A DNA stretch of 64,000 bases, from NCBI RefSeq assembly GCF_024168825.1, contig NZ_JALJWH010000001.1:4650001-4714000 (forward strand), in the 5' to 3' direction. Position numbers and translations under genes: made by a program. The notes beneath the pieces were generated by a model. The model made no database searches. It was given only the letters and a program-made list of their open reading frames with translations, and was not told the origin of the DNA. Each line of letters begins with the position of its first letter. Position 1 is the first letter of the stretch. This document shows, piece after piece, positions 358-64,000 of this stretch. The stretch is from Paenarthrobacter sp. A20. GTDB taxonomy: Bacteria > Actinomycetota > Actinomycetes > Actinomycetales > Micrococcaceae.

Positions 358-735
358 TTAGTTTTCCTGGGCCTCGGCGCGCGCCTTGGCAACGTGGGCG
401 TGGACTTCTTCCATGTCCAGTCCCTTCACGGCCTCGATGACCTGCTCAAGCTGCGGGCCGTTGAGGGCGCCCGGCTGCGAGAAGACCAGGACCTTTTCAC
501 GGAAAGCCATCAGCGTGGGGATGGAGGTAATCCCGGCCTCGGCAGCGAGCTGCTGCTCGGCCTCGGTGTCCACCTTCGCGAACACGACGTCAGTGTGCTT
601 CTCCGATGCAGCCCCGTACGTGGGGGCAAACTGGCGGCAGGGGCTGCACCAGGCAGCCCAAAAATCCACCAGGACAATGTCGTTGTCCTCGATAGTCGAT
701 GCGAACTGTTCTCCAGTGATGTCAACTGTAGCCAT
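358..735 (-). CDS. thioredoxin family protein
   Basis: A 125-residue cytoplasmic thioredoxin-fold protein. The redox motif WCSPC lies near residue 29 within VDFWAAWCSPCRQF, and the cis-proline loop ITSIPT is present, so a dithiol reductase function is likely. The first position of the CxxC pair spacer is Ser rather than the usual Gly, which can shift redox potential. The C-terminus carries an extra helical tail of about 20 residues rich in Ala, Glu and His. I chose the ATG at 735 because the protein then begins at the first beta strand; an in-frame ATG at 756 adds only seven unlikely residues. It is a single-gene unit between two convergent or spaced neighbours. Confidence 0.9.
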   Translation of the reverse strand: MATVDITGEQFASTIEDNDIVLVDFWAAWCSPCRQFAPTYGAASEKHTDVVFAKVDTEAEQQLAAEAGITSIPTLMAFREKVLVFSQPGALNGPQLEQVIEAVKGLDMEEVHAHVAKARAEAQEN

Positions 736-57174: not shown

Positions 57175-57202
57175 ACCCCTTTTCAGTTTGAAAGTGAAAC
57201 AC

Positions 57203-59920
57203 ATGAGCACCCCTTCCCCGTCCCCCAAAATCGGCACCCCCAGCAGGGCCTGGCGGTCCCGTGCCGACGCTTGGGAGTTTTTGGGATACGCCCTCAGGCA
57301 GCTCGCCTCGGCCCGGCACCAGGAGTCCGGTTTGCTGTCCCAGATCGATAGGACCTTTGCCCTCCTGGCAGCGGTGGAACCGTATTGGGCAGAGCCTGGA
57401 GTCAACGCTGTGGCCCAGTTGCGCCAGTTAATCGACGACGGCGAACCCCAGGCCGCGCTCCAGCTTCTGGGCGGTTTGTCCCACCTCCCGCTCGCCTCTG
57501 CCGGGGAAACAGCTGCGGTGCCGCGCGCTGAGCTCCCGGACGAGGAAGTTGTTGACCAGTCCGAGCCGGCTGACCGGCCACGCTTCGAGGTCCTGGTGGT
57601 GGATACCATTGAGCCCGAAGAATCCGAAGCGCTCAAGAACACCATGGCTGCGCAGCGCCGCCCTTCGGATGCGTTCACCTACACTGTCACCGTGGTTCCC
57701 AGCTATGAGGATGCCTTGGTGGCCATCATGCTGAACCCTGATATCCAGTCTGTTGTCCTTCGCCCGGGCTTCTCCCTCCGCAGCTCCCATCTCTTGGGCA
57801 GCGACCTCCAACGGTTCCTGGTCCGGCACACCTCCGCAGACTTGCAGGACTCACGGCCTATCGAGCGAATCCTTGCCCTGGCCGAGGCTGTCTCCGGGCT
57901 TCGGCCGGAGCTTGATGTCTACCTGGTGGCAGGGGTTTCCATCGAGTCGCTGGCTGGATCCCTGACGCGAAAGTTCCGGCGGATTTTCCGGCGACAGGAC
58001 CATTTGGACCTGCATCTGTCACTGCTGTCCGGGGTGGCCGAACGCTACGAAACGCCGTTCTTCACGGCGTTGCAGGACTACAGCCGCCGCCCGGCCAGTG
58101 TCTTCCATGCCCTGCCAATTTCCCGGGGCGCGTCGGTAGGGACGTCACCGTGGATCCGGGACATGGCCGATTTTTACGGGACAAACCTGCTGTTGGCCGA
58201 AACGTCCGCCACCTCGGGCGGTCTGGACTCTTTGCTGGATCCCCACGGCTCCATCAAACGCGCGCAGGAACTCGCCGCCCGCGCCTTTGGGGCGCAACGA
58301 ACCTACTTTGTCACCAACGGCACATCCACGGCCAACAAAATCGTGCACCAGTCACTGCTTGCCCCGGGCGATGTTGTGCTGGTGGACCGCAACTGCCACA
58401 AATCCCACCACTACGCCTTTGTGCTTGCCGGTGCCCGTGTGTCCTACTTGGATGCCTATCCCCTGGACAAGTACGCGTTTTATGGTGCTGTCCCTCTGGC
58501 CAGCCTGAAGCGCAGGCTCCTGGAGTACCGGCGGGCAGGCCGGCTCCACGAGGTGAAGATGGTGACCCTCACCAACTGCACGTTTGATGGAGTCGTCTAC
58601 GACGTCGAAAGGGTCATGGAGGAATGCCTGGCCATCAAACCGGATCTGGTTTTCCTGTGGGACGAGGCGTGGTTTGCCTTCGCCCGCTCCCATCCGGTGT
58701 ACCGCCGTCGAACCGGCATGGCGGCAGCAGCCGCTCTGGAAGCTTCCTTCAGCGATCCTGCCTACGCCGCCCGGTACGCGGAACAGGCCGCTGCCCTTCA
58801 TGACCCGGCCACCGGCGAACCCCTTGATGACGACGCCTGGCTCACCACCAGGCTGATTCCGGATCCTGCCAAGGCACGCCTGCGGGTCTACGCAACGCAG
58901 TCAACCCACAAAACGTTGACCTCGCTGCGGCAGGGTTCCATGATCCACGTGTATGACCAGGACTTCGCCGGCTCCAACCGGGAGTCCTTCCGCGAGGCGT
59001 ACATGACCCACACGTCCACCTCCCCCAACTACCAAATTCTGGCTTCCCTGGACATTGGCAGACGACAGGTGGAACTGGAAGGTTTCGGCCTGGTGCAACG
59101 GCAATCGGACCTTGCCGTGTCCGTGGCCCAAGCCGTGGCCCGGCATCCCCTGCTGAAGAAGTACTTCCGTGTGCTGACCTCGCGGGACCTCATCGGTCCG
59201 CGCTATAGGGAAACCGGCTCCAGCATGCCGCTGCGGGATGGGCTGGCCGAGCTGGAGGATGCCTGGCAGCGGGACGAGTTCGTCATCGATCCCAGCCGCC
59301 TGACGCTGGACATCAGCAAGACAGGGATCGACGGCGACACTTTCCGCCACAGCTACCTCATGGACGATCACGGCATCCAGGTGAACAAGACGTCACGGAA
59401 CACGGTGCTGTTCATGACCAACATCGGCACGTCCCGAAGCTCCGTGGCGTACCTGATCGAGGTCCTGGTGAAACTCGCTGAGGGCTTTGAGAATCCACAT
59501 CCATCGTCGCGGGCTCGGACGCTACCTGCCTCATCCGATGCTCCGCGTCCCACTCCCCCGCTCCCGGACTTCAGCACCTTTGCCGCGCGCTTCCGTACGG
59601 ATGATTCCTGCGAGGACGGTGATATCCGGGCCGCCTACTTTGAGAGTTACAAGCCCGATTCCACGGTGTACCTGTCCGCGGCTGAGGTGGCTGCGGCGGT
59701 GGCCGCGGGACAGGAAGTGGTCTCGGCAGGGTTCGTTACGCCGTATCCGCCCGGGTTCCCCATCCTGGTCCCGGGGCAGGTGATTACCCGGCAAACCCTC
59801 GAATTCATGGCCGCCTTGGATACGCGTGAAATCCATGGGTTCGATCACGAACGGGGGTACCGGGTGTTCGTGGAGCCTGCTTCTTCTTCTGTTCTCGAGC
59901 TGGTGGCTGTGGCGTCCTAG
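57203..59920 (+). CDS. Orn/Lys/Arg-type PLP decarboxylase
   Basis: A 905-residue PLP enzyme of the group III decarboxylase family, longer than the usual 700-780. Residues about 1-125 are an unassigned N-terminal segment, then a flavodoxin-like wing (FEVLVVDTIEPEESE), then the PLP core with TYFVTNGTSTANKIV, DRNCHKSHHYAFVLAG, FLWDEAWFAFARSHPVYRRR and the PLP-binding Lys in STHKTLTSLRQGSM, and a C-terminal domain with PYPPGFPILVPGQ. It would decarboxylate ornithine, lysine or arginine. ATG 57203; TTG 57188 is possible. It is coupled to the permease upstream. Confidence 0.9.
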   Translation: MSTPSPSPKIGTPSRAWRSRADAWEFLGYALRQLASARHQESGLLSQIDRTFALLAAVEPYWAEPGVNAVAQLRQLIDDGEPQAALQLLGGLSHLPLASAGETAAVPRAELPDEEVVDQSEPADRPRFEVLVVDTIEPEESEALKNTMAAQRRPSDAFTYTVTVVPSYEDALVAIMLNPDIQSVVLRPGFSLRSSHLLGSDLQRFLVRHTSADLQDSRPIERILALAEAVSGLRPELDVYLVAGVSIESLAGSLTRKFRRIFRRQDHLDLHLSLLSGVAERYETPFFTALQDYSRRPASVFHALPISRGASVGTSPWIRDMADFYGTNLLLAETSATSGGLDSLLDPHGSIKRAQELAARAFGAQRTYFVTNGTSTANKIVHQSLLAPGDVVLVDRNCHKSHHYAFVLAGARVSYLDAYPLDKYAFYGAVPLASLKRRLLEYRRAGRLHEVKMVTLTNCTFDGVVYDVERVMEECLAIKPDLVFLWDEAWFAFARSHPVYRRRTGMAAAAALEASFSDPAYAARYAEQAAALHDPATGEPLDDDAWLTTRLIPDPAKARLRVYATQSTHKTLTSLRQGSMIHVYDQDFAGSNRESFREAYMTHTSTSPNYQILASLDIGRRQVELEGFGLVQRQSDLAVSVAQAVARHPLLKKYFRVLTSRDLIGPRYRETGSSMPLRDGLAELEDAWQRDEFVIDPSRLTLDISKTGIDGDTFRHSYLMDDHGIQVNKTSRNTVLFMTNIGTSRSSVAYLIEVLVKLAEGFENPHPSSRARTLPASSDAPRPTPPLPDFSTFAARFRTDDSCEDGDIRAAYFESYKPDSTVYLSAAEVAAAVAAGQEVVSAGFVTPYPPGFPILVPGQVITRQTLEFMAALDTREIHGFDHERGYRVFVEPASSSVLELVAVAS

Positions 59921-60954
59921 GCTTTCGCGCTCCAACCGAAGGCAGGGGCGACGTGCTTGGCGGCGTTGCCCAGCAGCTTGGCGTTGTAGTCGACGCCAAG
60001 CTGGTTGGGCACCGTGAGAAGGACCGTGTCGGCTGCTTGCACGGCTGCGTCCTTCGCAAGTTCGTCCGCCACTTGATCCGGCTCGCCGATGTAGCTTTTC
60101 CCGAAGCGGGACAAGGCGCCGTCGAGAATTCCCACTTGGTCTTGGCTGTCCGCTTGGGCTCGGAGACCGAAGTAGTGGTTGTCGACGTCGTCCACGATGG
60201 GGATCACGCTGCGGCTGACGGAAATCCTTGGTTCAAAGTCGTGCCCTGCGGCGGCCCAGGCTTCGCGGAACATTCGGATCTGCTCGGCTTGCAGTTCATC
60301 GAAAGGCACTCCCGTGTCCTCAGTGAGGAGGGTTGAGCTCATGAGGTTCATGCCTTGCTCTGCTGCCCAGACTGCAGTCTTCCGGGTTCCGGCGCCCCAC
60401 CAGATTCTCTGCGGGAGGCCGGGTGACTGGGGTTGGATGGGCAGCAGACCTGTGGCCCCGCCGGAGTAATGTGGGTCCGCTTCGGCCACCCCGTGCCCGG
60501 CGATGGCTTTGCGGAACAATGCAGTGTGGCGGCGGGCCATGTCGCCACCGTCCTCACCGTCCTCGGGGACGTAGCCGAAGTTGGATGCTCCGTTCCGTGC
60601 GGGTTCGGGTGAACCACGGCTCACTCCGAGCTGCAGCCGCCCATCACTGATGAGGTCCGTGGCTGCTGCTTCCTCGGCCATGTAGAGGCTGTTTTCGTAC
60701 CTCATGTCGATGACGCCGGTCCCCATTTCGATCCGGCTGGTCCGTGCCGCAATAGCGCTCAGCAGTGGAAAGGGCGATGCTTGCTGCCGGGCGAAGTGGT
60801 GCACCCGGAAGAAGGCTCCGTCGATGCCCAGTTCCTCAGCAGCCACAGCGAGTTCGATCCCCTGTTTCAGGGCCTCCCCAGCCGTTGGCACGAGGGAACC
60901 GGGGACGCGGGCCCAGTGACCGAAGGAGAGGAAACCGATCCGTTTGTTGTGCAT
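59917..60954 (-). CDS. LLM-class flavin-dependent oxidoreductase
   Basis: A 345-residue luciferase-like monooxygenase. It begins RIGFLSFGHWARVPGS, has the FMN-binding barrel strands (FFRVHHFARQQASPF, IEMGTGVIDMRYEN) and the SRGSPEPA loop, and ends near the usual length. It oxidises a small organic compound with reduced FMN and oxygen; the substrate is not predictable. Its stop overlaps the decarboxylase stop within CTAG, so the two genes converge with no spacer. ATG 60954. Confidence 0.9.
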   Translation of the reverse strand: MHNKRIGFLSFGHWARVPGSLVPTAGEALKQGIELAVAAEELGIDGAFFRVHHFARQQASPFPLLSAIAARTSRIEMGTGVIDMRYENSLYMAEEAAATDLISDGRLQLGVSRGSPEPARNGASNFGYVPEDGEDGGDMARRHTALFRKAIAGHGVAEADPHYSGGATGLLPIQPQSPGLPQRIWWGAGTRKTAVWAAEQGMNLMSSTLLTEDTGVPFDELQAEQIRMFREAWAAAGHDFEPRISVSRSVIPIVDDVDNHYFGLRAQADSQDQVGILDGALSRFGKSYIGEPDQVADELAKDAAVQAADTVLLTVPNQLGVDYNAKLLGNAAKHVAPAFGWSAKA

Positions 60955-61097: not shown

Positions 61098-63017
61098 GTG
61101 AATTTCGACACGGGGGTTGCCGATCGTCTGATCGGTGCATGTCGAGACGCAGCCCGTACGCTGCAGGATCAACGCGGCGGACGGGAGTCGATCTCAACGG
61201 CTGCCCTTACGGAATTCCGGGGCGTGTTCGCTGACTGTTTCCGGGAGAACGTTGCCGCTGAACGGGCGGCCCGTTCGGAGCTGGTCCATATGTTGGAAGA
61301 TGTTGCCCGTCAGGTCCAGGATGCGAAGAGCGCCGCGGAGGTTGAGCAGCGTCGCTTGGATGACGTGACGGAGTGGGTGCTTGCCTCCGGCTGGGTGCGT
61401 GCTGGCGGGGGTGTTGGAGTGAATGTGGGGCCGCGCCCGTCGATGGAGGAGACTGACCGTCCGGTGGTGAGCGTGAACACTGTGCGGCAGGGGTTGCGTG
61501 TCTGGGCGAGTGGAAGCACTGCTGGGGCGAGTTCCGCTGATCCGGACACCTTGGAATCCGCAGTGTCAACCTTCAGGATCCAGGACGGCTCAGACCGAGG
61601 CGCGGCCAACAGAGTCAGTGCAGCTATGTCCGAGTTCGAGGACAGGTGCTCCTGGGCGCACTCTGATCTCGACGCTGTCCGTGGCGGGCTGCGACGGTTC
61701 CTGGAAGACAACCATCAGGACGCGACCCGGCTTTCCGACATCGCGTCCACGTTCCGCGCTGCCGGTGGGAGCGGTGACCTCGGGCAGATAACGGTATCGA
61801 ACGGCGTTCTTGTGCTTGCAACGGCGCCGATGACCTTATCGGGCTCGGCGCTGCTGGGCTACTTGTCCACTGCATCCGAGGCTGACGTGAAGGCATTGGC
61901 CACAATACCCGGATGGCAGCAGACCCTGCGAGGCTTGGACCCATCGAAGATCGGGACTTGGTGGGCGGGCATGAACGCGGGAGCCCACCCTGCAGCGAAC
62001 GAGTCCGGGCTCACGCAGGTGCAGGAGCTCCTGCTGGCTGCGGCTCCGGCCATGTTCGGCGCTTTGGACGGGATGCCCGCACTGGCTAGGGTCCGGGCTA
62101 ACCAGTTGAACGCGCCAAGCCTGCTCCGCGCGGCGGAGAAAGACCTGGAAACAGCCCGGAAGTTGTCGGGGATCGGGCAAGCACACCACGACCCGAACCG
62201 AACAAAGATGCTGGAAAATGAGGTGGCCTACCTGAAGCAGGTGGAAGCCGGGGACGTACGGCTTTACCTCTATGACCGGGACCAGTCCCGGATTGTGCAA
62301 ATGATCGGCACCCCAGACCCCAACACACGGCATGTGATCACCTACGTCCCGGGAACGTTCACCGGACTGAACATCTTCTACGAAGGCGGCGTACAGCAGG
62401 TCTCGAAATACCTCAATAACAACGTGCCGGGGACGGTGGCTTTCGTCTATAAGGATGGGCGGTTCCCCGGAGAGGCGGACACCGCAGGAGGTCCCAACCT
62501 GGCGAGAATTGGTGAGGCGAACGACGAGAACCTTGCACGCACCTCGGGGCAGCAACTGGCAGGTTTCGAGACCGGGATGCGCACTGACCCCTACCTGAAC
62601 GGTGCCGAGCAAACTGGCATCGGGCACAGCTGGGGCCTGGCGAACCTCACCAGTTCCGAGGTCGCCGGAGCCCGATATGACAAGGTGATTTCCCTCGCCG
62701 GGGCCGGAATGCTCCCGGACTGGAAACCACAGCCAACCACGGAATACTCGAACCTGTACTACTATGATCTGCTCGTCCATGGTCAGGGAGTTCCCAACCT
62801 CATCACGAAGAGAGGGGTGGTGTGGGATGGAAATAACCCCATTCATCGGGATGAGTTCGAACAGCACTATTACCGCGGCCCCCACGACGACCAACTTAGG
62901 GCGATTAACACCGTCGAAGAAGGGAACATCCTCATGGAAAACCACAACCTCATCGCCTCCGACAGCAAAGACAACAAGAAAGCGCTCAAAGACATGCTTG
63001 GAATTGTGACTCGATGA
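61098..63017 (+). CDS. DUF1023 alpha/beta hydrolase with helical N-terminus
   Basis: A 639-residue protein. The first about 240 residues are helical and Ala/Arg/Glu-rich (ACRDAARTLQDQRGG, LVHMLEDVARQVQDAKSAA, DRCSWAHSDLDAVRGGLRRF), like the WXG100/LXG-type delivery segments of type VII-linked proteins. The rest is the DUF1023 hydrolase, with nucleophile elbow GHSWG (Ser511) and Asp/His positions in the last 100 residues. No signal peptide is visible. GTG 61098 has GGAG at 7 nt. The stop overlaps the lipoprotein ATG (ATGA). Substrate unknown. Confidence 0.85.
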   Translation: MNFDTGVADRLIGACRDAARTLQDQRGGRESISTAALTEFRGVFADCFRENVAAERAARSELVHMLEDVARQVQDAKSAAEVEQRRLDDVTEWVLASGWVRAGGGVGVNVGPRPSMEETDRPVVSVNTVRQGLRVWASGSTAGASSADPDTLESAVSTFRIQDGSDRGAANRVSAAMSEFEDRCSWAHSDLDAVRGGLRRFLEDNHQDATRLSDIASTFRAAGGSGDLGQITVSNGVLVLATAPMTLSGSALLGYLSTASEADVKALATIPGWQQTLRGLDPSKIGTWWAGMNAGAHPAANESGLTQVQELLLAAAPAMFGALDGMPALARVRANQLNAPSLLRAAEKDLETARKLSGIGQAHHDPNRTKMLENEVAYLKQVEAGDVRLYLYDRDQSRIVQMIGTPDPNTRHVITYVPGTFTGLNIFYEGGVQQVSKYLNNNVPGTVAFVYKDGRFPGEADTAGGPNLARIGEANDENLARTSGQQLAGFETGMRTDPYLNGAEQTGIGHSWGLANLTSSEVAGARYDKVISLAGAGMLPDWKPQPTTEYSNLYYYDLLVHGQGVPNLITKRGVVWDGNNPIHRDEFEQHYYRGPHDDQLRAINTVEEGNILMENHNLIASDSKDNKKALKDMLGIVTR

Positions 63018-63565
63018 TAGGGCGACGCGGCACCATGGCGTTGTTGCTGGCGGGCCTCATGGGGCTTACGGGTTGCGCCGGAACCCCAAATACGAGTTCG
63101 ACAGAGTCAACTGTGCCAAGCGCCACCAAAACACAGGAGGAACCGGTGAAAGTTGAACTGACATGGCAGGATGCCAAAGCTCATACCCAAGCTCTGGAAC
63201 TGGAGATCGCCGCCCAAGTCCCTGAAGACGCCGTTATCTCGATCGATCAGAAGACGAAGGGCATGCTTCTGTCCTGCAACCGAACCAAACACAGCTGGAA
63301 TGGTTCAACGACAATCACGGTCACCGAAGGAACCAAAATCGAGCCGATCCTGAAAGAAATCAAAACCCACTATCAGAGTGGACAATACGTCGTCGAGGAC
63401 AGGCTTGATATCAGAGGATCATACGAAGTCCAGATAAGCCCTCACAATACGAGCGATGAAAACTACATTGTCGCCGAAGGGTTAGCCCCAAACCAGATCC
63501 GCATTGATTCGGGCTCTGAGTGTTTCACGTTGCCAGAAGGTATTTACCCGGGCGGGAATTTTTAG
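63014..63565 (+). CDS. small lipoprotein, copy 1
   Basis: A 183-residue lipoprotein: basic start MIGRRGT, hydrophobic core and lipobox LTGC with Cys21, then a Ser/Thr/Glu linker and a mature domain with a Cys pair (LLSCNRTKHSWNGST and SECFTLPEG). I recognise no family. It is translationally coupled to the hydrolase and has a paralogue 87 bp downstream. Position after a putative secreted effector suggests an immunity or accessory role at the membrane surface; that is inference. Confidence 0.8.
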   Translation: MIGRRGTMALLLAGLMGLTGCAGTPNTSSTESTVPSATKTQEEPVKVELTWQDAKAHTQALELEIAAQVPEDAVISIDQKTKGMLLSCNRTKHSWNGSTTITVTEGTKIEPILKEIKTHYQSGQYVVEDRLDIRGSYEVQISPHNTSDENYIVAEGLAPNQIRIDSGSECFTLPEGIYPGGNF

Positions 63566-63655
63566 ATCCTCATGAAAAACCAGAACCTCCTCGCCTCGTA
63601 CAGCGAGGACAACGTGCACGTGCCCAAGTGCATGCTGGGAAGTGCAATTCGGTGA
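63566..63655 (+). pseudogene. degenerate copy of the DUF1023 hydrolase C-terminus
   Basis: Ninety bases, 29 codons plus a TGA, that align without gaps with the last 90 bases of the hydrolase gene (62928-63017): 16 of 29 residues are identical (ILM, LLAS, DN, MLG landmarks). There is no start with a ribosome site. Its stop overlaps the next lipoprotein start as GTGA, reproducing the coupling of the intact pair. It is the trace of a tandem duplication. Confidence 0.85.
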
Positions 63656-64000
63656 GGATTCGGAGCGGCGCCGTGGCGTTGATGCTGGTCGTTTCAATCG
63701 GGCTTGCCGGCTGCGCCGGAAACCCAAGCGCGAGTTCGACGGAGTCAACCGTGCCAACTGCCAGTGATACACAGGAGGAACCGTTGATAGCCGAACTGAC
63801 CTGGCAGGAAGCTAAAGCAAGCACGGCAAAGGAAGCGCTGGAGATCGCGGCCTTGATCCCAAAGGACAAGATTACTTCCATAGTCCAGAAAGAGACGGGC
63901 GTTCTCCTATCCTGCAGCAATACCGAACACAACTGGAACGGTTCGACTTCGATCACGCTGACTGAGGGAAGCGAAGCTGAATCTGTCGTGAAAGAACTTG
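63652..64000 (+). CDS. small lipoprotein, copy 2 (cut by window edge)
   Basis: From GTG 63652, 116 codons are visible before the window ends. The signal has lipobox LAGC, and the mature part closely follows copy 1: SSTESTVP, TQEEP, ELTWQEAK, VLLSCSNTEHNWNGST and a TLTEGSE stretch. The N-terminal halves are strongly similar, so this is a recent paralogue; the lipobox linker is the best conserved part. Its role should match that of copy 1, perhaps with different specificity. Confidence 0.82.
   Translation, partial: MRIRSGAVALMLVVSIGLAGCAGNPSASSTESTVPTASDTQEEPLIAELTWQEAKASTAKEALEIAALIPKDKITSIVQKETGVLLSCSNTEHNWNGSTSITLTEGSEAESVVKEL

Follow-up and report, generated by a model that had tools for sequence, protein, structure and literature searches.

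Layout of the locus

The right-hand end of the window, a 64,000-nucleotide stretch of the 5.38-Mb genome of Paenarthrobacter sp. A20 (G000:C1:4650001-4714000), encodes a 639-residue alpha/beta-hydrolase, a probable toxin, followed on the same strand by paralogous lipoproteins that are candidate immunity proteins. The cluster continues past the window and was followed in region L003, which spans the right window edge (window position = L003 position + 60499). It forms an array of four units of ∼640 bp, in each of which a hydrolase-tail copy precedes a lipoprotein gene, and the window holds unit 1 and part of unit 2. Two repeat families, of 300 and 125 nucleotides (nt), are present in four copies each with a start-to-start spacing of 635-648 nt, and the copies are 63-82% identical to their reference copies, which is far above chance. 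A first-pass annotation of the window had proposed a tandem duplication that retains a stop/start overlap and had suggested that further copies might lie beyond the window edge. Both proposals hold: the tail and lipoprotein 1 are repeated directly downstream as a 27-codon remnant and lipoprotein 2, the overlap is present in unit 2, and two more units in the same genome bring the total to four. The features of the array are listed below in window positions, or in L003 positions where stated (ORF, open reading frame).

61098..63017, + strand: hydrolase gene, probable toxin, an open frame of 639 residues with a GTG start
61098..61400, + strand: ESAT-6/WXG100-like N-terminal hairpin (residues 1-101), probable type VII export region, with model helices 5-39 and 43-101, an EsxA profile match and a homologue (P0060) that passes the WXG100 cut-off
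62628..62630, + strand: codon of S511 in GHSWG, probable nucleophile, invariant in 32 sequences
62943..62945, + strand: codon of H616, probable catalytic histidine within the repeated tail, invariant in 32 sequences
62958..63014, + strand: polymorphic tip, the last 19 residues (621-639), recognised from within- and between-type differences, with a terminal helix at 624-638 in the model
63014..63565, + strand: lipoprotein 1, 183 residues, cognate immunity candidate, lipobox cysteine C21 invariant
63377..63454, + strand: hypervariable stretch of lipoprotein 1 (residues 122-147), candidate toxin-binding face, with 12 of the 15 most variable positions among 11 types
63572..63655, + strand: unit 2 tail mini-ORF (remnant), 27 codons from an ATG at 63572, its stop overlapping the GTG of lipoprotein 2
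63652..64000 (cut by the window edge), + strand: lipoprotein 2, orphan immunity candidate, GTG at 63652, 185 residues in L003:3153-3710
L003:3711-4346 and L003:4347-4987, + strand: units 3 and 4, beyond the window, from the repeat comparison across the window edge

The hydrolase stop and the lipoprotein 1 start overlap in an ATGA. The lipoproteins of the array are 54-67% identical to lipoprotein 1, and the lipobox cysteine is common to all four. The block of residues 122-147 was picked after the variable positions were known, and its P value is not to be trusted.

In a structural model of the hydrolase (predicted local distance difference test score, pLDDT, 88.8), two N-terminal helical hairpins precede an alpha/beta-hydrolase domain that has a Ser in a GxSxG motif and a C-terminal His. 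Positions 10-96 of the hydrolase family profile match EsxA of Staphylococcus aureus among the PDB sequences (E 4.8e-4), which together with the modelled hairpins points to a WXG100/LXG-type N-terminal helical domain. The Pfam WXG100 cut-off was passed by one of the 32 family members, and the window hydrolase alone had no Pfam WXG100 match. The first-pass label DUF1023 was rejected, since the Pfam profile (PF06259) found neither the window protein at E≤10 nor any of the 32 family members at E≤0.01. Neither gene family has a Pfam name (32 hydrolases and 38 lipoproteins, E≤0.01), and where sources name the hydrolase homologues they mostly call them hypothetical proteins. The genome also encodes three EssC-like ORFs that match the EssC/EccC-type ATPase profile TIGR03928 (E 2.6e-159, 9.6e-144 and 5.9e-75).

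Homologous loci and loss of the hydrolase

Three overlapping genome searches, all of which include the A20 genome and give lower bounds, returned matches in at least 16 genomes (149 relatives searched), at least 22 (206 genomes of the genus, a count that leaves out seven same-genus genomes with weak matches in the search of relatives) and at least 43 (395 genomes, drawn evenly from the family). In the second search no more than 16 candidates per genome were scored, and in the third eight. Twelve array-type loci from Paenarthrobacter and Arthrobacter carry one to five lipoproteins each, 38 in all, with every frame open. There are four lipoproteins in A20, G219, P. aurescens TC1 (G151), Paenarthrobacter sp. 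CM16 (G048), P. nitroguajacolicus SM1928 (G169) and Arthrobacter sp. cf158 (G255), five in G200, three in G067, two in G080 and G150, and one in G250 and Paenarthrobacter sp. AR02 (G034). The locus shows two features of a homogeneous polyimmunity locus, namely a tandem array of distinct paralogues and variation in their number and type between related genomes.

The hydrolase is full length (639-640 residues from the start codon) in seven of the 12 loci. Its frame ends early in G080 (378 residues), cf158 (189), SM1928 (228) and CM16 (123), and in CM16 most of the gene is deleted, with the start 464 nt before the lipoprotein rather than the usual ∼1916. In G250, a 298-residue frame covers the C-terminal part only (L084, 6676-7572, - strand) and has a tyrosine at the H616 position; the start of its tail resembles the remnants of cf158 and of G219 unit 3, as if remnant-derived. 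Broken or truncated genes thus account for 5/12 hydrolases and 0/38 lipoproteins (Fisher P 4e-4). Retention of the lipoprotein after loss of the enzyme is the behaviour of immunity genes.

Further afield, 17 more distant regions of the genus were examined, and in 14 of them a hydrolase homologue lies beside a lipoprotein. Among 17 regions from other genera, five have a tail and a lipoprotein but no full hydrolase (L122, L129, L132, L135 and L137). L127 combines three elements: an intact hydrolase pair, a C-terminal fragment of ∼227 residues accompanied by a lipoprotein, and a 28-residue tail that likewise has a lipoprotein. At L122:8590-8813 (G426) the hydrolase has shrunk to approximately its first 18 codons fused to the tail, the stop of the short N-terminal frame overlaps the tail ATG, and an intact lipoprotein follows. 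In G521 (L125:6548-12169) an intact hydrolase is followed by seven tandem lipoproteins without tail remnants.

Lipoprotein types and their exchange between species

Lipoprotein bodies, defined as the sequence from the conserved W/R-Q-x-A-K motif onward, were sorted into types by average linkage with a cut of 0.15, and the 38 genes fell into 11 types. The same type never occurs twice in one array, compared with 4.34 expected repeats in shuffles (P 0.004; P 0.012 without TC1, and 0.0009 to 0.027 across other cuts). A dosage array of like copies was rejected on this basis. Within arrays, body identity averages 0.60 with a maximum of 0.83 (51 pairs), whereas the best match of a body in another genome has a median identity of 0.98 (A20/TC1 pair left out). 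Many orphans, that is lipoproteins after the first, correspond to first-position lipoproteins of other species. The body of A20 lipoprotein 2 is 98-99% identical to the first-position bodies of CM16, G080 and G200, and those of lipoproteins 3 and 4 are each 90% identical to the first-position bodies of SM1928 and AR02, respectively. A20 and CM16 hold an identical set of four types with the first two swapped. In total, the type of 15/26 orphans occurs at first position in another genome, and four of the 11 types are known only as orphans.

The modelled lipoprotein fold resembles LppA of Mycobacterium tuberculosis (2v7s) and a DUF4853 protein of Actinomyces (4mjg), at 10-13% identity. Foldseek with the model gave no match at E≤0.001, searching PDB sequences with a lipoprotein profile yielded two matches, the better at E 0.23, and Pfam LppA (PF16708) reached only E 0.41 for lipoprotein 3, below the cut-off, with no match for the other three. 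The M. tuberculosis genes lppA and lppB are tandem and adjoin a hydrolase-like gene.

A polymorphic tip at the hydrolase C-terminus

The first-pass annotation had called for a comparison of the hydrolase C-terminus and the lipoproteins among strains. Compared between species instead, the C-terminus varies together with the first lipoprotein. Windows of 20 residues were scored along the hydrolase in 11 loci, with broken genes entered as separate pieces, CM16 left out (gene mostly deleted) and G250 entered as a 269-residue piece. The last window (621-639) shows 0/95 within-type differences against 0.519 between types. The next highest window reaches 0.244, and the other windows average 0.123 between types and 0.084 within.

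Sharp borders are visible in the DNA. In 100-nt bins, identity between A20 and G200 is 88-100% as far as hydrolase nt 1800, 83% in the following bin and 34-74% beyond it. For the same-type pairs A20/G067, G080/G200 and G219/cf158, identity is 98-100% over the stretch that runs from nt 1900 to the end of lipoprotein 1, although their core bins range from 75 to 100%. The sharp borders and the same-type identity at the tail indicate that the tail end moves between species as one piece with lipoprotein 1. AR02 looks like a product of orphan-unit promotion: its tip and signal peptide score 0.89 and 0.96 to G219 unit 3, compared with only 0.82 and 0.69 to any first unit.

Tail mini-ORFs between the lipoprotein genes

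All 26 segments between lipoprotein genes (17 distinct) start with an ATG 0-6 nt past the preceding stop. The first-pass annotation had called the remnant degenerate; the remnants have diverged, but in none of the 26 does the frame close more than 3 nt ahead of the following lipoprotein start. The stop overlaps the next start in 21/26, the frame runs into the next gene in 3/26, and in 2/26 the stop falls 2-3 nt short. The histidine has been lost from 16/26 remnants, which implies that enzyme function is gone while the frame stays. With modest confidence, we suggest that these mini-ORFs act as translational bridges between lipoprotein genes.

Interpretation and alternatives

These data are best explained, with a probability of roughly 0.72, by a polymorphic toxin locus that has gathered an array of immunity genes, in which a hydrolase toxin is accompanied by its cognate lipoprotein 1 and by orphan immunity lipoproteins. 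The first-pass annotation had likewise seen a hallmark of polymorphic toxin-immunity loci, and the one to five lipoproteins in the 12 loci and the loss of hydrolases beside intact lipoproteins support this, although we infer toxicity and immunity from comparative patterns. What the sequences themselves establish is the array, the lipoprotein types, the co-variation, the recombination tracts, the open frames and the loss of hydrolases beside retained lipoproteins. An EssC-type (type VII) machine would export the 639-residue hydrolase via its ESAT-6-like N-terminus, and the enzyme would cut lipids or another ester in the envelope of competitor cells. Lipoprotein 1, anchored outside the membrane, would bind and block the enzyme, and lipoproteins 2-4 would provide orphan immunity against allelic toxin forms of related species. 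The toxin type would be set mainly by the last ∼19 residues, which homologous recombination carries between species along with lipoprotein 1. In each orphan unit the final 27 toxin codons survive as an open mini-ORF, which probably passes ribosomes between lipoprotein genes through translational coupling and supplies homology for exchange.

Several observations weigh against this interpretation. The type of 11/26 orphans is not seen at first position elsewhere, and lipoproteins without a hydrolase detected at E≤0.001 occur in three of the 17 distant regions of the genus (L038, L040 and L042) and in G126 (L033). The seven-lipoprotein array of G521 is read as lacking remnants because only 33-56 nt separate its matched ends. 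If only coding length mattered, all five lesions would fall in the hydrolase with a probability of 0.04, and sequencing error could account for three of the five, which are simple frameshifts. Among PDB sequences the hydrolase profile scores best against a coiled coil (formin-binding protein, E 4.7e-4), on a par with EsxA, and all three EssC matches score below curated cut-offs. Finally, the ratio of nonsynonymous to synonymous differences (pN/pS) in the tip is 0.56, with no excess of amino-acid changes (the value for codons 540-600 was not used, as an extra codon there in at least the G250 row put the ungapped comparison out of register). Positive selection on the tip was rejected on this value.

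The absence of such an excess means that the tip may be a passenger, and the most probable alternative takes up this point. It accepts the immunity array, but the tip would differ merely on account of recombination borders and the remnants would be undecayed relics; we regard it as plausible, though short of even odds. In line with this, the neutral chance of finding no premature stop in the 15 in-register remnants is 0.09 to 0.018, given 74 to 123 substitutions (a test that leaves out two of the 17 distinct remnants, which are frameshifted), their pooled pN/pS is 0.63, and the same remnant occurs with different bodies in 8/11 orphan pairs. Against it stand the open frames of all 26 remnants up to the next start and the pairing at first position, where the same tip always comes with the same body (3/3 pairs, TC1 left out, versus 3/11 orphan pairs, Fisher P 0.055).

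It is improbable that the lipoproteins are instead partners of a housekeeping envelope lipase, such as a chaperone, activator or membrane anchor, with the array as a dosage amplification. The adjacency of enzyme and lipoprotein in 14/17 distant regions would fit such a role, as would a fold like those of LppA and DUF4853 proteins, for which we encountered no immunity role. This explanation is at odds with the lack of any repeated type within an array, the persistence of lipoproteins after hydrolase loss and the match of orphan bodies to first-position genes of other species. A single old, functionless tandem duplication that is now decaying is very improbable: the one junction form throughout, in which 0-6 nt separate the lipoprotein stop from the tail ATG, suggests one founding event, but the unit number varies from one to five, bodies have been exchanged between species and 38/38 lipoprotein frames are open, so that the single invariant duplication named by the first-pass annotation as its own refutation is not what the comparison between species revealed.

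Within the polymorphic toxin interpretation, a more specific and tentative model, on balance doubtful, is one of tip-and-shield cassettes. A conserved catalytic body would be re-typed by swapping its last helix (∼19 residues) together with a matching lipoprotein, the shield, while orphan units would serve as donors and minimal cassettes, each made up of a toxin-tail mini-ORF and a shield, and stop-start coupling would keep the shields translated. A single crossover joining the hydrolase tail to a tail copy further downstream would delete the intervening genes and install a new tip and shield, giving an AR02-like product. The contact would be formed by the terminal helix of the toxin against the hypervariable hairpin of the lipoprotein (residues 122-147).

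The surroundings of the array were also inspected. Upstream, within window positions 57188-60954, a 910-residue decarboxylase-like ORF on the + strand and a luciferase-like monooxygenase on the - strand were noted by eye. At several other loci a weak match on the - strand recurs about 0.7-1 kb upstream of the hydrolase, perhaps the same monooxygenase, in which case a shared chromosomal site would follow. Outside the window, the three EssC-like ATPases of the A20 genome contain FHA-like parts (L138:5971-10425, L139:8283-12572 and L140:6696-10934), and two of them adjoin kinase-like and phosphatase-like genes (by eye); these three loci are possibly T7SSd-like type VII systems. A plasmid or phage carrier was rejected, as none of the 72,556 plasmid or 50,697 phage records searched with tblastn matched the hydrolase.

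Relation to known systems

No paper on this hydrolase/lipoprotein family was found in the open-access literature (subscription journals were outside the scope). The locus would belong to a kind already known, a homogeneous polyimmunity locus around a type VII-like toxin, with tip-only polymorphism and tail mini-ORFs as its apparently new features. Tandem paralogous immunity genes are also found in polyimmunity loci in general (PMC3482391). The TslA-TilA system of Staphylococcus, in which tandem immunity lipoproteins accompany a phospholipase toxin secreted by a type VII system, is similar in combining an alpha/beta-type lipase linked to type VII secretion with lipoprotein immunity and a variable number of paralogues (PMC10730906). 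In TslA, however, the lipase domain is N-terminal and the helical targeting domain C-terminal, the reverse of the order modelled here, and the immunity genes lie upstream; toxin-tail pieces are not mentioned in the parts of that article consulted (PMC10730906). TilA is a DUF576 protein, and DUF576 is not among the four Pfam families matched by any of the 38 lipoproteins (E≤0.01). Tox-ABhydrolase-3 is likewise an alpha/beta-hydrolase toxin with GHSxG that may ride on WXG proteins, but its listed partners are Imm66 and Imm69 (PMC3482391). The lipoprotein family here has no Pfam name, and GHSxG is the only motif in common with that toxin family.

Homologous recombination between tandem immunity paralogues is described for the esaG, tipC and tspA/tsaI clusters (PMC9484751). 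The tsaI cluster contains a 3' tspA fragment, and according to its authors recombination with this fragment would create a new toxin variant and delete the intervening genes, although they found no evidence of this in their data (PMC9484751). There is one fragment there, whereas here a tail copy precedes every orphan gene and AR02 looks like a recombination product. A shifted 3' effector end is described for the type VI secretion system immunity arrays of Vibrio cholerae, but these arose by successive insertion of unrelated modules, while the units here are homologous with one junction form (PMC5361080). In Salmonella LT2, recombination takes place between the main Rhs gene and an orphan C-terminal toxin piece that has an immunity gene; that piece comprises an entire toxin domain, compared with 27 codons here (PMC3967940).

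If the polymorphic toxin interpretation is true, soil Micrococcaceae maintain a common stock of toxin types with the immunity lipoproteins that match them, and an immunity gene that is cognate in one species can be an orphan in another. If specificity lies in the tip, the contact between toxin and immunity protein would come down to approximately one helix against one hairpin and would offer a small natural system for the study of protein-contact co-evolution. The tail mini-ORFs would be a testable example of toxin gene remnants retained for a new purpose.

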